From assembly GCF_040448695.1 (NCBI RefSeq), contig NZ_CP159307.1, forward strand, positions 930,001 through 994,000: a DNA stretch of 64,000 nt. Direction: 5' to 3'. Origin of the DNA: Dehalogenimonas sp. 4OHTPN (GTDB taxonomy: Bacteria > Chloroflexota > Dehalococcoidia > Dehalococcoidales > Dehalococcoidaceae). Below the pieces are notes generated by a model, which had not been told where the DNA came from, searched no databases, and was given only the letters and a program-made list of their open reading frames with translations. Within the stretch, counting starts at the first letter, position 1. Every line of letters begins with the position of its first letter. Position numbers and translations under genes: made by a program. This document shows, piece after piece, positions 9,423 through 16,940 of this stretch.

Positions 9423-10124
9423 TTATTCTGGCTTGGCTAACTGATAACCGGCGCCGATGCGGGTGAGCAGCAATTTGGGGTCGGAGGGGTTTTCCTCGAT
9501 TTTTTCCCGCAGGTGGCGGACATAAACCTTTAGGCTCTCGGCGGCGCCGGGGTATTCCTCGCCCCATAAAGCTTTCACCAGGACGGCGTGACTCACCGGG
9601 TGACCGACATGACGCATCAATTGCCCGAGGACGATGCCCTCAGTACGGGTGAGGTTGATGCGCCGGTCTTTAAGTTTAAGGTCGCGGATGGAAGGCCCCA
9701 GCGTCATAGAGCCTACGGTCAGCGGCAACTCCTCGGCCGATGTTTCCTGGCGGCGCATGACCGCCTTGACCCTGGCCAGCAGTTCCATCTGCCGGAAGGG
9801 TTTGATGATGTACTCATCGGCGCCGAGTTCAAGACCGCGGACGATATCGGTTTCGTCTCCCCGGGCGGTCAGTACGATGACCGGAACGTGACTGAAACGC
9901 CTGATGTCCTTGAGTACATTGAATCCGCTGGTGTCCGGCAAACCCAGATCAAGAATGACCAGGTCCGGGTTGTTTTTGTCCACCAGTTCCACGCCCTCCT
10001 GGCCGGAGTTAGCGGCCAAAAAGGTGGCCTGAGGCCAGCGGATCTTGAATGTCAGCGTTACCGCTTCGACGATTTCAGCGTCATCCTCAATCAATACCAC
10101 GGTCAACTCGGGTTTATTCACCAT
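9423..10124 (-). CDS. OmpR/KdpE-type response regulator
   Basis: Two-domain DNA-binding regulator of 233 residues. The receiver has the acidic pair at Glu13/Asp14-15, phospho-acceptor Asp59 in LVILDLGLPD, Thr86 and Lys108 (IIKPF), so it should be phosphorylated normally. A winged-helix DNA-binding domain fills about residues 130-233 (SLKVYVRHLREKIE recognition region). It lies two bases after the upstream histidine kinase gene and ends at a strong terminator, so the pair is one operon. KdpE is the nearest named family by overall look, but no kdp genes are present; target genes are unknown. Confidence 0.93.
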   Translation of the reverse strand: MVNKPELTVVLIEDDAEIVEAVTLTFKIRWPQATFLAANSGQEGVELVDKNNPDLVILDLGLPDTSGFNVLKDIRRFSHVPVIVLTARGDETDIVRGLELGADEYIIKPFRQMELLARVKAVMRRQETSAEELPLTVGSMTLGPSIRDLKLKDRRINLTRTEGIVLGQLMRHVGHPVSHAVLVKALWGEEYPGAAESLKVYVRHLREKIEENPSDPKLLLTRIGAGYQLAKPE

Positions 10125-10126
10125 TT

Positions 10127-11320
10127 CTACTCCATTTCAGCCGTCAGCGGCAGGGTAAAATAGAATGTCGTGCCGCAGTCTTTTTCGCTTTCAAACCAGA
10201 TATCCCCACCCTGCAGCGTGACCAACATTCTACATAACGCCAAACCGATGCCCATACCGTCATTGGGATCGGCATCATCGACGATACGGTAATAAGGCTT
10301 GAAAATATGAGCCTGTTCCAGCAGGGTCATGCCGCGGCCCGTATCGGCAACACTTAACCGCAGCATTTTACCACTAACCGCCGCGCCGATGGTAATCTGC
10401 CCGCCGCGCGGCGTGAACTTGCCGGCATTGTTGAGCAGGTTAAGCAGGATTTGCCGCAGCCGGTCCTCATCAGCCATAACCAGAGAGATGTCATCGTCAA
10501 TCTCCAGTTCTAGAGACTGATTTTTACGGTCGAATTGGGGCGATACCTGGGCGGCCAGGTCCAGGAGCAGCGGCGTGACATCCAGGGGCTGGGCATGGAC
10601 CTTCAAGACGCCCATCTCGCCGCGGGCGAAGTCCAGGAGGTCGTTGATGCGGCGCTCCAGGTTCATGGCGCCGCGGTAAATGTTTCCCGCCAGCCGCAGT
10701 TCATCCTCACCCTCGAGTATTTCAAGCAGCGCTTCGCCGGAAGCGATCAGGGGTGTCAGCGGTGTCTTGAGTTCATGCACCAGCGAACGGGTGAAATCCA
10801 CCCTTTTACTGATTTCAGTCTCAAGTGCCTGGCGCAACGATTTTTCCCGGTTATAGGCCTCCGTCAGAGTCGTAGCCTCGGCTTTACGGGCGGAAATATC
10901 CCTGGCAATCGAAAGCATGAAACGTTTGCCGTTAATTGAGAAGGTACTATAACTGATCTCAACCGGCTCATTTCGGCCTGAACTTGTCTGAAAAGTAGAT
11001 TCCAACACACCGGTCTGGCCGTCTTCAGGTTCATTGATGATGGCGGCCAATTCAACGGGCGGCTCCGGGAAGATGTCGGAGAAGGTCAGTCCCGGTATCG
11101 CTTCCACATGATAACCCAGCCGCCGGGCGGCCAGGGTGTTGGCTTCGGCAAGCACCGGGGAGCTGCCGGAACGGAATTCCCAGAGGAGCATCGCGTCGGC
11201 GGCGTTCTGGAAGATCAGGCGGAAATCGTGTTCATCTTTTTGATACCTGCAGCTTCCGACGGCGCCGCCGGAACCGACGGTTGGGGCCCTGTCTTCGGCT
11301 GCAGTCATATTGTCATTCAT
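10127..11320 (-). CDS. Soluble PAS-domain histidine kinase
   Basis: Sensor kinase of 397 residues without membrane segments. A PAS domain spans about residues 30-145. The phospho-acceptor His182 lies in SLVHELKTPLTP, and the ATPase domain shows the N box (LLNLLNNAGKFT), G1 (VADTGRGM) and G2 (GMGIGLALC). It probably senses a cytoplasmic signal and phosphorylates the regulator two bases downstream. I start it at the ATG ten or so bases after the predicted RNA start; an ATG further upstream lies inside the -10 element itself and cannot be used from that promoter. The signal is unknown. Confidence 0.92.
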   Translation of the reverse strand: MNDNMTAAEDRAPTVGSGGAVGSCRYQKDEHDFRLIFQNAADAMLLWEFRSGSSPVLAEANTLAARRLGYHVEAIPGLTFSDIFPEPPVELAAIINEPEDGQTGVLESTFQTSSGRNEPVEISYSTFSINGKRFMLSIARDISARKAEATTLTEAYNREKSLRQALETEISKRVDFTRSLVHELKTPLTPLIASGEALLEILEGEDELRLAGNIYRGAMNLERRINDLLDFARGEMGVLKVHAQPLDVTPLLLDLAAQVSPQFDRKNQSLELEIDDDISLVMADEDRLRQILLNLLNNAGKFTPRGGQITIGAAVSGKMLRLSVADTGRGMTLLEQAHIFKPYYRIVDDADPNDGMGIGLALCRMLVTLQGGDIWFESEKDCGTTFYFTLPLTAEME

Positions 11321-11336
11321 GCCTGTTATCAGTAAC

Positions 11337-11366
11337 ATTATACAGCCGTTGGAATACTAATGTCAG
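11337..11366 (-). promoter_or_regulatory. Promoter of the PAS kinase operon
   Basis: Reading leftward, CTGACA (11366-11361), an 18-base spacer and a perfect TATAAT (11342-11337). The RNA would start near 11330, leaving a leader of only about ten bases before the kinase ATG. Confidence 0.7.
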
Positions 11367-11381
11367 CAAAGGACAACTGAA

Positions 11382-11660
11382 TTGGTTACACCGGGAAACC
11401 GGCAAGATGAACCGCGCGATGAACAGATGATGGCCTGCCGCTGCGGTGAATGCGACTCCGGGCGGCGGCGCGGCTGCAACAGCAGCCGTTTGAGAGAGCT
11501 GGTCGGGGCTTTATTCGATGAGGCATTTCCCGGGCTTTATTGCCGACGGCCGCACCACCCAACCGATGCTGCAGGCTCGGAGCCTGAAGAGTGCCTCTGC
11601 GCTGATTGCAGTCTTAATGCCGGCGATGCTGTTTTTTATTGCCGCCGGGAATTGACTTAG
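11382..11660 (+). CDS. Small cysteine-rich protein, possibly DUF2769-like
   Basis: A 92-residue reading frame with ten cysteines, including CRCGEC near the N-terminus and CLCADCS followed by FYCRR at the C-terminus. The last pattern recalls small metal-binding proteins annotated as DUF2769, but the match is by eye and only partial. AAAGGA lies eight bases before the TTG start used; an ATG pair 15 codons in is an alternative. Its stop overlaps the stop of the convergent acetyltransferase gene. Role unknown; the cysteine spacing suggests a metal or Fe-S site. Confidence 0.45.
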   Translation: MVTPGNRQDEPRDEQMMACRCGECDSGRRRGCNSSRLRELVGALFDEAFPGLYCRRPHHPTDAAGSEPEECLCADCSLNAGDAVFYCRRELT

Positions 11661-12133
11661 CCGAGCTTTTTGTAGAATATGACCAGGTCATCGCCGCGGT
11701 CGTAAAAGTCGGGGATACGGGCTATCTCGGTATACCCGCAGCTGGCGTGGAAACGCCTTGTCCGGGCGTATTGCGGTGTGGAAGATGTTTCAAGCGTGAT
11801 CTGCCAGCCGCCGCGCTGTTTAACGGCTGTCTCGCAACGGCGCATCAATTCCCGCCCAATGCCGCGGCCCTGGGTTTCCGGGTCCACGGCCGCCCAGTAG
11901 ATTTCCCAGTTACCGCGGGAAAGCGGGGTACTGCCGTAGGTCGCATAGCCGACGGGACGGCCATCCACTTCGGCGACGACGGTATAGTAACCTGAACCTG
12001 CCGGGTTCGAGACTGAGCCTTCAAGCACTTCGTTGGCCACCGGCAGCTCATCAGGGGCGAATTCCGAAATCCGGCGGAGCATGGACTCAAGGGCCGGCAG
12101 GTCACCCGGGACGATGTCCCTGTAAACGATCAT
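11657..12133 (-). CDS. GNAT-family N-acetyltransferase
   Basis: A 158-residue acetyl-CoA-dependent acetyltransferase. The core motif A reads AAVDPETQGRGIGRELM, with the Q-x-x-G-x-G/A acetyl-CoA pyrophosphate loop, and the C-terminal part (FHASCGYTEIARIPDFY) is typical of GNATs acting on small molecules. It overlaps the upstream ATP-grasp gene by ATGA and is the last gene of the aminomutase operon. By analogy with AblA-AblB, where a GNAT acetylates beta-lysine made by lysine 2,3-aminomutase, a beta-amino acid or its conjugate is a plausible substrate. That is inference from context, not sequence. Confidence 0.88.
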   Translation of the reverse strand: MIVYRDIVPGDLPALESMLRRISEFAPDELPVANEVLEGSVSNPAGSGYYTVVAEVDGRPVGYATYGSTPLSRGNWEIYWAAVDPETQGRGIGRELMRRCETAVKQRGGWQITLETSSTPQYARTRRFHASCGYTEIARIPDFYDRGDDLVIFYKKLG

Positions 12134-13143
12134 CTTGCCTCCAGAGCGAAACCGATGATTTTTTCAATCATGCTCTGATAGCCTGTCCCCGCAGCGCCGG
12201 CCTGGCGTGCCGTTCCGGCGTCGGGGGACAGGTCCGGGTTGGCGTTGACCTCAATGACCACCGGACGGCCCGAGGCATCGAGCCGCATATCCACCCGGGC
12301 ATAACCGCGGCAACCGGCAGCGGAGCTTGCTGCCAGGGCGGTTTTTTGGAGTGCGGCCGCCAGTACAGGGTCAATATCCGCGGGACACTGGACGTTTGTA
12401 TTTTGAAAATACGCACTCCGGGGTTCCCATTTAGCGGCGAATGTGAGGATCCGGGGCAAGCCTTTGGGCAGCGTATATACAATTTCCGAAATTGGTAAGA
12501 CATCCCGGCTGGAGGCACCGAAAACCGTGGCGTTGAATTCACGGCCCGGGAGGAACTCCTCAACCAGAGCCGGCAAACCATCGTATTTTTCCACCATCGA
12601 TTTCACTTCGGTTATTAAAGCTGGAAGATCAAACACCACACTGGTTTCCGATAAGCCATGCGAAGCGTCATCGGAACGGGGTTTGACGATGCAGGGAAAA
12701 TCCAGCCTGAAATCCGAGAAGTCCTTGCCATCGCATAATTGCTGGATAGGCGTTGGAACCCCGGCCCTGCGCAGAACAGCGGCGGCAGCCGATTTATCGA
12801 GCGTCAACGCCAGGGCGGCTGACGGCGAACCGGTGAACGGTATCCCTGAAGCTTCAAGGTAGGCGGCGACGGCCGCTTCCGTCTCCGGCATGCCGGCGAA
12901 CCCTTCGAACAAATTGAAAATGACATCAGCTTGAATCGATGCCAGTATTTGTTCGGCCCGCTTGACCGGGGGCGGCAAGGGGTATTTACTCCAGTCGTGC
13001 TCGAGGCTGGTTAGCGCCTGGGCGATTGCGGCTACGGCGTCCATAACGCCGGTCTCAGCTTTAGATTCGCCGCGGGCGTCATAAAGCGACGGCACCGGCG
13101 CATTAAAGATCAAGGCAACCCGCAACGGTCCGGAACGGTTCAT
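12130..13143 (-). CDS. ATP-grasp ligase of D-Ala-D-Ala ligase fold (second copy)
   Basis: A 337-residue ATP-grasp enzyme. The ATP-binding segment FPCIVKPRSDDASHGLSE, the omega region VEEFLPGREFNATVFG and the metal-binding end ARVDMRLDASGRPVVIEVNANPD are clear. Such ligases join a carboxylate to an amine through an acyl-phosphate. It overlaps the upstream ATP-grasp gene by ATGA and the downstream GNAT gene by ATGA, so the three are translationally coupled. Dehalococcoidia are reported to lack peptidoglycan, so a role in a wall precursor is unlikely if that assignment holds. I infer it builds an amino-acid conjugate with the aminomutase product. Confidence 0.88.
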   Translation of the reverse strand: MNRSGPLRVALIFNAPVPSLYDARGESKAETGVMDAVAAIAQALTSLEHDWSKYPLPPPVKRAEQILASIQADVIFNLFEGFAGMPETEAAVAAYLEASGIPFTGSPSAALALTLDKSAAAAVLRRAGVPTPIQQLCDGKDFSDFRLDFPCIVKPRSDDASHGLSETSVVFDLPALITEVKSMVEKYDGLPALVEEFLPGREFNATVFGASSRDVLPISEIVYTLPKGLPRILTFAAKWEPRSAYFQNTNVQCPADIDPVLAAALQKTALAASSAAGCRGYARVDMRLDASGRPVVIEVNANPDLSPDAGTARQAGAAGTGYQSMIEKIIGFALEAR

Positions 13144-14147
13144 CGGAGCCCGGGATACCGGCTGATGGCGGCGGCAAGGATGGACCTGATCATCATCGGG
13201 TGGCTCCACCCCATCGCGGTCGCGATGATGAAAAGGTCGCTGTCGAGCGATAAGCCCGGGAGAGGATTGACTTCCAAGAAATGCGGCGTGCCGTCAGCGG
13301 CGATGCGGAAATCCATGCGGGTGAAGTCACGGCAGCCGAGGGTGCGGAAAACGGCCAGCGCCTGGGATTTGATGCGGTCGATCACTTCCGCCGGCAGCCT
13401 GGCCGGGTATTCGTAATCAACGAGGTTCCGGTAGTCACGCTTGACTTCCAGGGAATAGATGAAAGGGCCGTCTTTGCGCCGGGGTAAAATCCGCATCGGC
13501 ATCACCAGTGGCGGTGAGGCGGAGGCAATATTGCCGATGATGCCACAGGTCACCTCGTCGCCGTCAATGAACTCTTCGGCGATGACCGGAGAACCGTAGT
13601 TCTTGAATAACGCCTCTGCATGGTCGGCGACCTCGGCCGGATCAGCGGCCAGCGAAGTCAGGCGGATACCTTTGCTGGAACCCTCGAAGGCTGGCTTGAC
13701 GAAAGCCGGGAAGCGGAATCCGTGCCAGTCCGCCGACCGGGCTTGACCCGGGGCATCGAAAAAGCGCCAGGCGGGGGTGGTCACGCCGGCAGCCTGAACG
13801 ATTTGCTTGGTCAACGGCTTGTCGAGGGCGATTGAAAGCGTCTGCGGATCGGCGCCGGTGTAGGGAATACCGAGCATCTCCAGCACCGACGGAACCTGCG
13901 CTTCACGCGAACGATAGGCGCCTCTTCCTTCAGCGATGTTGAAGACGAAGTCTATCGGTTCCCGGAGGACGCTTAACAGGAATTGCTTGCCGCCGCCGAG
14001 CAACACCGGAGAATGACCCGACGCCTCAATGGCCGCTGAAATGAGACTCACCGTTTCGGCGGAATCATATTCTTCAAGGGCGTCGGCAGGGGCATCCGGG
14101 TCGGCGGCGATGGATTGTTTAAGGTCGTACGCCAGCCCTATCTTCAT
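13140..14147 (-). CDS. ATP-grasp ligase of D-Ala-D-Ala ligase fold (first copy)
   Basis: A 335-residue relative of the next gene. Seen are the N-terminal domain (KIGLAYDLKQ), the phosphate-contact loop FPAFVKPAFEGSSKGIRL, IAEEFIDGDEVTCGIIG, and the metal site FTRMDFRIAADGTPHFLEVNPLPGLS. The two copies differ enough to suggest distinct substrates or consecutive ligations. The start ATG lies inside the 3' end of the aminomutase gene (29-base overlap) with GAGGTAAAGA just before it. Both ends therefore overlap neighbours, a sign of a tightly co-expressed pathway. The reaction is not known from sequence. Confidence 0.88.
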   Translation of the reverse strand: MKIGLAYDLKQSIAADPDAPADALEEYDSAETVSLISAAIEASGHSPVLLGGGKQFLLSVLREPIDFVFNIAEGRGAYRSREAQVPSVLEMLGIPYTGADPQTLSIALDKPLTKQIVQAAGVTTPAWRFFDAPGQARSADWHGFRFPAFVKPAFEGSSKGIRLTSLAADPAEVADHAEALFKNYGSPVIAEEFIDGDEVTCGIIGNIASASPPLVMPMRILPRRKDGPFIYSLEVKRDYRNLVDYEYPARLPAEVIDRIKSQALAVFRTLGCRDFTRMDFRIAADGTPHFLEVNPLPGLSLDSDLFIIATAMGWSHPMMIRSILAAAISRYPGLR

Positions 14148-15417
14148 TCTTTACCTCAGTGACGGTCCAGCCAAGCGGAAGCTGCGGCGGCGCCGTAATT
14201 CCAACCTTCGGTCTTCGGGGTACCGGCGCGGGTTTGGGATTAGGAAAATGACTGATATGCCCTTCATAGTTACGAACCACCAGCTCATGGTCGGAACGGG
14301 TGAGGACATAGTTCGGCGTCAGCGGTATCTTGCCGCGGCCGTCCGGCAGGTCGATGACATAATTGGGGATGGCCAGGCCGGAAGTGTGGCCGCGCATGCC
14401 TTCGATGATGCGCAGGCCGACTTCCACCGGCGTCCAGAAGTATTCCGTGCCCTGGACCTGGTCGCACTGGAAAAGGTAGTAGGGGCGCACCTTGGCCTTG
14501 AGGAGTCCGTGGCACAGCTTCAACTGGGTATCGACGGTATCGTTGACGCCGCGCAGGAGGACGCTCTGGTTATTGACCTGGACGCCGGCGCGGAGAAGCC
14601 GGTCGCAGGCTCCAGCGGCCTCGGGCGTAATCTCGTTCGGGTGGTTGAAATGGGTGTTGAGCCAGATAGGGCCGTACTTGGACAGCATGGCGCAAAGCTC
14701 TCCATCTATACGCTGGGGCAATACCACCGGGAAGCGGGTGCCGATGCGGATGATCTCGACATGCGGGATCTGCCGCAAAGCCGAGAGTACTTTCTCAAGC
14801 TGCGGCGTGGATAGGGTCAGCGGGTCGCCGCCGGAGATGATGACATCGCGCACCTGGGGGGTCCGGCGGATATAGTCCAGCATCCGTTCGATCTCGGCCG
14901 GGGTATGAATCCAGCCGCCGTGTTGCCATTCACGCTTGCGGGTGCAGTGGCGGCAGAGCATGGCGCAGATATCGGTTAACACCATGAGCACCCGGTCCGG
15001 GTAGCGGTGCACCAGGCCGGGCACCACAGAGTCACGCTCCTCAGCCAGCGGGTCTTCATGACCGGCGCCGGAGGCCATCTCCAGACTAGAGGGCACGGCC
15101 TGGAGGCGAACTGGGTCACATGGGTCGTCCAGGTCCATGAGCGACAGGTAATAAGGGGTGACAGCCAGCGGAAAACGCGCCGATACGAGTTTGAGGCGGG
15201 TACGTTCTTTGACGGAAAGAGGAATAAACCGGGAAAGGTCTTCTATGGCGGTGATGCGGTTCCGGAAATGCCAGCGCCAGTCGTTCCACTGGGCGTCGCT
15301 GACATCGGGGTAAAACTTGCGGCGGAAAAGAGAAGGGTTAAGGGGAGGTTCGTCAGCTTCGGACGAGCACGAGGGGGGTTCAGCCTTGTCTTCGGCAATC
15401 AGAGATTCTTCGGTCAC
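14119..15417 (-). CDS. kamA: Lysine 2,3-aminomutase-family radical SAM enzyme
   Basis: Radical SAM, PLP-dependent 2,3-aminomutase (432 residues). The Fe-S motif is CAMLCRHC (Cys151, 155, 158). The PLP-binding lysine aligns with Lys363 in DGRGKIPL. Both aspartates that hold the side-chain amine in Clostridium lysine 2,3-aminomutase appear kept (Asp319 in FQCDQVQG, Asp356 in YVIDLP). In glutamate 2,3-aminomutase they are replaced, so L-lysine to beta-lysine is the best guess. The GTG start follows GAGGAG by seven bases and lies downstream of a good promoter, so longer forms are excluded. It heads an operon with two ATP-grasp ligases and a GNAT. Confidence 0.92.
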   Translation of the reverse strand: MTEESLIAEDKAEPPSCSSEADEPPLNPSLFRRKFYPDVSDAQWNDWRWHFRNRITAIEDLSRFIPLSVKERTRLKLVSARFPLAVTPYYLSLMDLDDPCDPVRLQAVPSSLEMASGAGHEDPLAEERDSVVPGLVHRYPDRVLMVLTDICAMLCRHCTRKREWQHGGWIHTPAEIERMLDYIRRTPQVRDVIISGGDPLTLSTPQLEKVLSALRQIPHVEIIRIGTRFPVVLPQRIDGELCAMLSKYGPIWLNTHFNHPNEITPEAAGACDRLLRAGVQVNNQSVLLRGVNDTVDTQLKLCHGLLKAKVRPYYLFQCDQVQGTEYFWTPVEVGLRIIEGMRGHTSGLAIPNYVIDLPDGRGKIPLTPNYVLTRSDHELVVRNYEGHISHFPNPKPAPVPRRPKVGITAPPQLPLGWTVTEVKNEDRAGVRP

Positions 15418-15518: not shown

Positions 15519-16940
15519 TTAAGGCGGCCAGGGCGGGTATGGCTCCGGCGGCCGTTTGACCTCGAAAGGTTGACCGACGGCGGCAGGCGAGGCCGGGGCG
15601 GCAGCCGATTGAAATGCCGGCTTAAGCTCGATTAGCCGCAACTCGGCCGGCACCAGCCTCGGCGGGAGCGGAAAAGGCTGGGAAGGAGACAGTGAAAGCT
15701 TGAAATCGGCGGCTTTGGTACCGTCAACGCGCGGCATGAGCAGCGCCGTGGCTAGAGCCCGTGCCAGTCCGGACAGCAGGAATAGCGTCAGGAAGCCGTG
15801 GCCGAAAAATTCCGGCATCCGCGGGGCGATGAGGCCGCCCAACAGCGCGCCGGTACAGATAGCCAGGCCGGAAACAGCGTTGTAGATAGCGATAGCCCGG
15901 GTCCGGCGCTCCGGCGCCGAGGCTTCGAAAAGGAAATTCGGCGCGGCCAGGTTAAAGCCGCTCCAAGAGAACCCGGAGAAGACCTGGATAACCAGCAGGT
16001 AAGGCAGCGACTGACCGCCCAGCCATAAGATGGGGTTCAGGGGTACCATCCAGGCGGTCAAGCGCACAATTTTAATATGACCGATCCGGTCGGCCAGGCG
16101 GCCCCAGAAGCCCATGAACAGGAAATTGGCCACTGCCGCGGCGGCGGTGACGACAACAAAGGTCCAGTAGCTGAAGCCCAGCTCCCGAAGCATGTAGACA
16201 GCGAAGAACGGTCCGGCCAGGTGGGTGGACAGCATCATTGCGGCAACAAACAGGCTGAAGCGGCCGGCCCGCGTGCCGGAGATGTTTTTAATCTCGCGCA
16301 GCGGCCGCCACGGCTCGGTACAGCGGCGGGGCGGCGGTTCCTGCATCCGGGAAAGGAAGAATGCCGAAGCCAGACGGAAGCAGACAGCCCCACCGAAGAG
16401 CAGACCGAAGCCGAACATCGCCTGGTGGGAGGACAACTGGAGGGCCGCGCCGCCCAGGATGAAACAGGCTAGGAGGGTCATGCCGCCGATTTTGTTGCGC
16501 CAGCCGAAGTAACGCCCGCGCAGGCCGGCGGGTACCAGGTCGGCCATCATGCCGCCCCAGGCCGGATTGCCCAGCGCCCCCAGCACGCTGCCCAGGGTGA
16601 ACAGGCCGATAAGCCACCACACCGCGGCGCCCTGGAAGAACTGGGGCATCAGGAAGAGCGGCAGCCACAACGCCGCCTGGGCCAGAGCCAGCGGCACCAA
16701 GAGGCTCTTGCGGCTGCGCAGCCGTTCGGAGATGAAGGGGGCGCCCAACTGCGACAGCGCCAGCGCCAGATTGGGCAGACTGGAGAGCAGGCCGATCTGG
16801 GCGGTGGAGGCCTTCAGCGCCAGGGCGAAGGGCGCCATGAAGTCCTGAGTCAGCCCCAGCATGGCGTTGTAGGCGGCGCCGTCGAGCACCGAATAGCGCA
16901 GGCTTTTATTTACGGCGGGGTCGGGCGAATACTGTTTCAT
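15519..16940 (-). CDS. MFS transporter
   Basis: Major facilitator superfamily permease of 473 residues with about 12 membrane helices. The motif-A-like loop FMGFWGRLADRIGHIK follows the middle of the protein, and an equivalent (SERLRSRKS) follows the second helix. The hydrophilic C-terminal tail of about 70 residues is rich in proline and alanine, and it ends YPPWPP. It begins one base after the stop of the ArsB-type permease, so the two are cotranscribed. The next gene downstream is the aminomutase operon, which has its own promoter. Substrate unknown; export of the neighbouring operon's product is possible but unproven. Confidence 0.88.
   Translation of the reverse strand: MKQYSPDPAVNKSLRYSVLDGAAYNAMLGLTQDFMAPFALALKASTAQIGLLSSLPNLALALSQLGAPFISERLRSRKSLLVPLALAQAALWLPLFLMPQFFQGAAVWWLIGLFTLGSVLGALGNPAWGGMMADLVPAGLRGRYFGWRNKIGGMTLLACFILGGAALQLSSHQAMFGFGLLFGGAVCFRLASAFFLSRMQEPPPRRCTEPWRPLREIKNISGTRAGRFSLFVAAMMLSTHLAGPFFAVYMLRELGFSYWTFVVVTAAAAVANFLFMGFWGRLADRIGHIKIVRLTAWMVPLNPILWLGGQSLPYLLVIQVFSGFSWSGFNLAAPNFLFEASAPERRTRAIAIYNAVSGLAICTGALLGGLIAPRMPEFFGHGFLTLFLLSGLARALATALLMPRVDGTKAADFKLSLSPSQPFPLPPRLVPAELRLIELKPAFQSAAAPASPAAVGQPFEVKRPPEPYPPWPP

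Follow-up and report, generated by a model that had tools for sequence, protein, structure and literature searches.

In a 64,000-nucleotide stretch of the complete 1.75-Mb genome of Dehalogenimonas sp. 4OHTPN (NZ_CP159307.1, positions 930,001–994,000; hereafter the window), four overlapping genes encode an aminomutase (KamA), two ATP-grasp ligases (LigA and LigB) and a GNAT acetyltransferase. We put the chance at about one in two (0.5) that these genes form an operon for making a small peptide or amide that contains beta-lysine and is N-acetylated. It is very likely that the four genes serve one pathway using beta-lysine, and probable that this pathway ligates beta-lysine to a peptide or amide. 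Judged from gene and residue content, the operon does not appear to belong to peptidoglycan synthesis or to the known osmolyte pathway, because AblB is missing, the positions that bind D-alanine (D-Ala) are replaced in the ligases and no MurC in the family exceeds its cut-off.

A recurrent four-gene operon

All four are minus-strand genes within 11657–15417, where the original prediction had placed them: KamA at 14119..15417 (432 amino acids (aa), GTG start), LigA at 13140..14147 (335 aa), LigB at 12130..13143 (337 aa) and GNAT at 11657..12133 (158 aa). The predicted overlaps are likewise present, with junctions of −29 (KamA/LigA), −4 (LigA/LigB) and −4 (LigB/GNAT) bases. KamA is a radical S-adenosylmethionine (SAM) and pyridoxal phosphate (PLP) lysine 2,3-aminomutase without the C-terminal Cys zinc site, LigA and LigB are D-Ala-ligase-fold enzymes (PF07478, 102 and 83 bits; cut-off 24) and the acetyltransferase matches PF00583 at 57 bits. 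As read from the sequence, the KamA start at 15417 has GAGGAG seven bases upstream, a good spacing, and the LigB ATG lies inside the overlap with the LigA stop.

LigA adjoins KamA in all 11 genomes of the family. The full KamA–LigA–LigB–GNAT set was present in 8/8 Dehalogenimonas-like genomes (the genus of the window), all of which keep the −29 overlap between KamA and LigA, with the other two junctions ranging from −16 to +2. Three Dehalococcoides-like genomes have only the KamA–LigA pair at the cassette; LigB was not detected in them (one ligase match each at E ≤ 1e-40) and there was no adjacent GNAT. Among 80 loci gathered by KamA similarity, those closest to KamA carried ligases in Dehalococcoidia, SAR202, Acidobacteria, Deltaproteobacteria, Riflebacteria/Ozemobacter and Omnitrophota, usually in the order KamA–LigA–LigB–GNAT, and ligases were not found beside KamA in the Bacteroidales, Clostridium and other fermenter loci of this set. 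The original prediction had proposed a search for the same four-gene order across genomes, and the order indeed recurs in the genus, widely in Dehalococcoidia and in distant lineages. Overall, it is kept in dozens of genomes from several bacterial phyla, which is more than chance.

Fusions and genome content also tie the genes together. LigB and GNAT are a single protein in SAR202 (L054) and Ozemobacter (L065), based on Pfam domains, and probably also at L162, based on a pairwise match. LigA is the most constant partner of KamA, with GNAT missing at L036, L188, L189 and in the Dehalococcoides-like genomes. A LigA profile had strong matches (E ≤ 1e-40) in 67/301 Chloroflexota genomes; with the limit set at E ≤ 1e-60, samples from three other phyla gave 107/297, 50/297 and 73/398 genomes. 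KamA (E ≤ 1e-80) was found in 39/40 LigA-positive versus 5/40 LigA-negative genomes (Fisher P = 7e-16, from counts that ignore shared ancestry), and the difference was significant within each of three phyla (13/14 versus 3/14, 13/13 versus 1/13 and 13/13 versus 1/13). Genomes whose ligases and KamA are unlinked still carry a KamA elsewhere (13/13). Gene order, LigB:GNAT fusions and co-occurrence all support the suggestion in the original prediction that the four products act in one pathway.

LigA-like sequences were also seen in two other settings. Proteins of 716–743 aa at L165, L166 and among Firmicutes matches have a LigA-like half fused to another part, and six IMG/VR contigs annotated as viral (L233–L238; viral origin putative) carry LigA homologues with 32–46% identity.

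Substrate residues of KamA

The window's KamA matches TIGR00238 at 329 bits (cut-off 199) and the lysine 2,3-aminomutase of C. subterminale (2A5H) at 458 bits. In 2A5H numbering, it has the CxxxCxxC cluster Cys triad, R134, K337, D293 (QCD) and D330 (VID), and the same residues are kept in 91/91 cassette KamA proteins and 17/17 unlinked copies. We take the roles of these residues from the lysine 2,3-aminomutase structure, with D293 and D330 presumably the lysine side-chain aspartates and K337 the PLP lysine, alongside R134. Both aspartates are present, as first noted, and they favor beta-lysine as the likely starting compound and, by inference, as the substrate of the ligase pathway.

Assignment of KamA to more specific families was less successful. 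The protein scores 472 bits against the AblA equivalog, under its cut-off of 525. EpmB, which acts in beta-lysylation of elongation factor P, was rejected (243 versus 369 bits), as were glutamate 2,3-aminomutase (452 versus 650 bits) and arginine aminomutase (below cut-off). The CxCxxC zinc tail is missing in 91/91 cassette KamA proteins, in which C268 is usually replaced; 41/49 KamA proteins encoded at other loci, mostly in fermenters, have it. Unlinked copies also have the cassette form (17/17 without the tail). In a quick KamA tree, fermentative and AblA-like proteins fell mostly on one side, with low support.

Ligases that differ from Ddl

LigA and LigB share the fold of Ddl/Van ligases, with Ddl the best PDB match to both structural models (predicted local distance difference test (pLDDT) 92.1 and Z 32 for LigA; 94.5 and Z 34 for LigB). 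They also share all catalytic ATP/Mg residues: K97, K144, E180, E187, K215, R255, D257, E270 and N272 are invariant in 17/17 LigA and 15/15 LigB proteins, so both ligases should be active. They differ at the D-Ala-site positions of DdlB, with constant Y216->R and L282->D replacements in LigA and Y216->W, G276->D and L282->G in LigB, the latter pattern holding with few exceptions across a broader set of 88 proteins. A basic acceptor such as beta-lysine would fit the acidic residue that LigA has at the acceptor-carboxylate position. The N-terminal region around DdlB E15 was not used, since its alignment with LigA and LigB was unstable between runs.

Among the matches listed, the best Ddl/Van equivalog scores were 152 (LigA) and 123 bits (LigB) versus a cut-off of 243. 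No MurC match exceeded its cut-off in the 11 family genomes, and the window's genome had no match of any score. The linkage of the ligases is with KamA and GNAT, not with mur genes. Based on the scores, the changed acceptor residues and the MurC result, we rejected a peptidoglycan role; these proteins are unlikely to be ordinary D-Ala-D-Ala ligases, in line with the original prediction.

Two further Ddl-like ligases occur in the window's genome. One (L117:5675-7766; G000 C1, ~1.614 Mb) follows a protein with a HEAGH-type metallopeptidase motif and overlaps its end, and the other (L118:6683-9366; G000 C1, ~1.664–1.666 Mb) lies divergently to the gene of a 445-aa radical-SAM protein that is weakly similar to KamA.

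Relation to the acetyl-beta-lysine pathway

AblA and AblB, as found in methanogens, Methanoperedens and Dehalococcoides-like genomes (for example, L018), likewise combine a KamA-type aminomutase with a GNAT. In contrast, the operon adds two ATP-grasp ligases, its KamA is under the AblA cut-off and has no C-terminal zinc site, and its GNAT is from another family and is linked or fused to LigB. This GNAT had no match to AblB (TIGR03827) among the matches listed, and its nearest named family was RimI (48 bits, below the cut-off of 86). AblB was missing from 77/80 LigA-positive genomes, including the window's. The other three are the Dehalococcoides-like genomes (G001–G003; L018–L020, L116), in which AblA and AblB form one fused protein of 764–784 aa (757 and 344 bits, respectively). 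The fusion suggests that these genomes probably make N-epsilon-acetyl-beta-lysine, a compound that the available portions of PMC12415852, PMC4918011 and PMC13390484 do not mention for these genera. Within the family, beta-lysine seems to be used through either the ligase–GNAT arm or the AblB arm, a hint that the two have related roles.

Genes beside the cassette

In the window, a gene for a major facilitator superfamily (MFS) transporter lies directly upstream of KamA (15519..16940, minus strand). Members of this family adjoin the cassette in 11 loci, 10 of them with both on one strand, and the transporter is a probable though putative partner for export or import of the product. Downstream, also on the minus strand, are a PAS/HisKA sensor kinase (10127..11338), present in all Dehalogenimonas-like genomes, and its paired OmpR-type response regulator (9423..10124), conserved together with the kinase. 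A histidine kinase and a response regulator recur beside the cassette in Dehalogenimonas-like and Dehalococcoides-like genomes and at L036 and L173–178, with histidine kinases also at L113–115; the sensor kinase and response regulator are possible regulators of the operon. Between cassette and sensor kinase, a Cys-rich open reading frame of 92 aa (11382-11660, plus strand) is kept in five genomes of the genus and has a homologue without a Pfam match.

Other neighbors vary by lineage. A GNAT-HDAC gene, of the histone deacetylase/acetylpolyamine hydrolase superfamily, lies beside eight cassettes (for example, L037:9848-11587), with a product of 579–595 aa in most. At L210 the full cassette is followed by an MscS channel gene, also a neighbor of kamA–ablB in Methanoperedens (PMC11337218), and at L188 the cassette follows a GntR/TrkA_C regulator. 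In the Dehalococcoides-like genomes, a Fur-like gene and an ABC transporter come after KamA–LigA. Pyrimidine genes, ATP synthase and methyltransferases beside cassettes looked like housekeeping and were set aside.

Eight loci within one strongly supported LigA clade (L170, L193, L194, L198–L201 and L211) place LigA–LigB, usually with GNAT, behind a pyruvoyl arginine decarboxylase and/or agmatinase. Five of these also have a deoxyhypusine-synthase family gene, and sister loci have KamA. We rejected a true swap of KamA for arginine decarboxylase because all of these genomes carry KamA elsewhere (in most loci read, behind a MerR-like regulator). The eight loci are possibly a polyamine-linked version of the pathway.

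Proposed pathway and alternatives

From the gene set we infer the order of the steps, the identity of the other units, the acetylation site and the role of the product, as follows. KamA would convert L-lysine to beta-lysine. LigA would then form a first amide bond with beta-lysine as one partner by the D-Ala-ligase mechanism, in which ATP activates a carboxylate as an acyl phosphate that is attacked by an amine; that LigA acts first is suggested by the minimal KamA–LigA pair of several lineages. LigB would add a second unit through another ATP-dependent amide bond, and GNAT would cap a remaining amine with an acetyl group. The product would most likely be intracellular, serving either as a compatible solute or as a stress solute resembling polyamines, with its production under two-component control and, in some lineages, with deacetylation by the GNAT-HDAC enzyme. 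A compatible solute is our leading but tentative choice of role, with a polyamine-like conjugate as its main rival. The original prediction had read the two extra ligases as pointing to a beta-lysine peptide or conjugate, and this finds indirect support in outline from the absence of AblB, the non-Ddl residues and the conserved linkage of the ligases.

The nearest functional precedent is Ngg, which acetylates and ligates glutamine en route to the osmolyte N-acetylglutaminylglutamine amide (NAGGN; PMC8070244). The Ngg/AsnO system similarly combines an acetyltransferase with a peptide-bond-forming activity to make an acetyl-dipeptide osmolyte (PMC8070244), an architecture that the LigB:GNAT fusions mimic. 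It differs in that the operon has two Ddl-fold ligases and takes a beta-amino acid from KamA. No Ngg-type model was among the NCBIfam matches listed for the four proteins, and no asparagine-synthase amidotransferase was seen among recurrent cassette neighbors, although the genome was not searched for AsnO.

Several observations weigh against the pathway and role proposed here. Osmotic clues are few (the MscS gene at L210 and the GntR/TrkA_C regulator at L188), the polyamine-gene linkage and transporter neighbors suggest other roles, and the co-occurrence counts take no account of ancestry. Since LigA has varying partners, lineages may differ in the second substrate. In addition, the osmolyte lists for these genera, in the available portions of PMC12415852, PMC4918011 and PMC13390484, name only ectoine and mannosylglycerate.

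The product could instead be an aminoacylated, acetylated polyamine or polyamine mimic that replaces or modifies polyamines, with amines (agmatine, putrescine, homospermidine or beta-lysine) as the ligase acceptors. Both the eight loci with arginine decarboxylase and/or agmatinase and the GNAT-HDAC protein beside eight KamA cassettes favor such a product; however, this decarboxylase type was absent from Dehalococcoidia and the other KamA-cassette genomes tested, the polyamine-linked genomes retain KamA and the polyamine genes may be mere operon neighbors, leaving it rather unlikely. Less likely is an AblA/AblB-type pathway. While KamA and GNAT in one operon follow AblA/AblB logic, the family assignments of both proteins and the rarity of AblB argue otherwise, as do the constancy of LigA, the loci without GNAT and the fusion of GNAT to LigB rather than to KamA; the view in the original prediction that this is not plain AblA–AblB thus held up.

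We consider it improbable, slightly more so than the AblA/AblB-type pathway, that the operon makes a small peptide for secretion, such as a metallophore or antimetabolite, with the adjacent MFS protein as its exporter. The 11 loci with an MFS gene and the Fur-like gene and ABC transporter of Dehalococcoides-like genomes would fit, but most cassettes have no MFS gene, no constant dedicated resistance or uptake gene accompanies them, and the wide spread and core-like character of the module do not resemble secondary metabolism. Least probable is a contribution to the cell envelope, as a peptidoglycan-like peptide or a lipid or S-layer modification. The D-Ala-D-Ala ligase fold invites this explanation, whereas the changed acceptor residues and the MurC result in the 11 family genomes speak against it, and the module is also found in phyla that should have normal peptidoglycan and would possess a separate, canonical Ddl.

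Implications

The protein families are known; their combination and its putative product appear to be new. No description of the operon was found in literature on beta-lysine with Dehalococcoidia, ATP-grasp or Dehalogenimonas, and from the two-compound osmolyte lists, as far as the available portions go, it appears to have been overlooked. In many anaerobes, KamA genes are interpreted as belonging to lysine fermentation or as the osmolyte enzyme AblA. A large, coherent KamA set would instead belong to a ligase-based pathway. More speculatively, paired D-Ala-ligase-like enzymes might make a widespread, unreported class of beta-amino-acid metabolites, N-acetylated beta-lysyl peptides or amides, which Chloroflexota, Acidobacteriota, Firmicutes and other phyla would use as a new kind of compatible solute or in place of polyamines. 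If the ligase-based pathway is right, many genes labeled 'D-Ala-D-Ala ligase' or 'lysine 2,3-aminomutase' would have to be reannotated, and the pathway would explain the persistence of Ddl-like ligases in wall-less organohalide-respiring bacteria and would provide a new metabolite class relevant to the stress physiology of organohalide respirers and to bioremediation.

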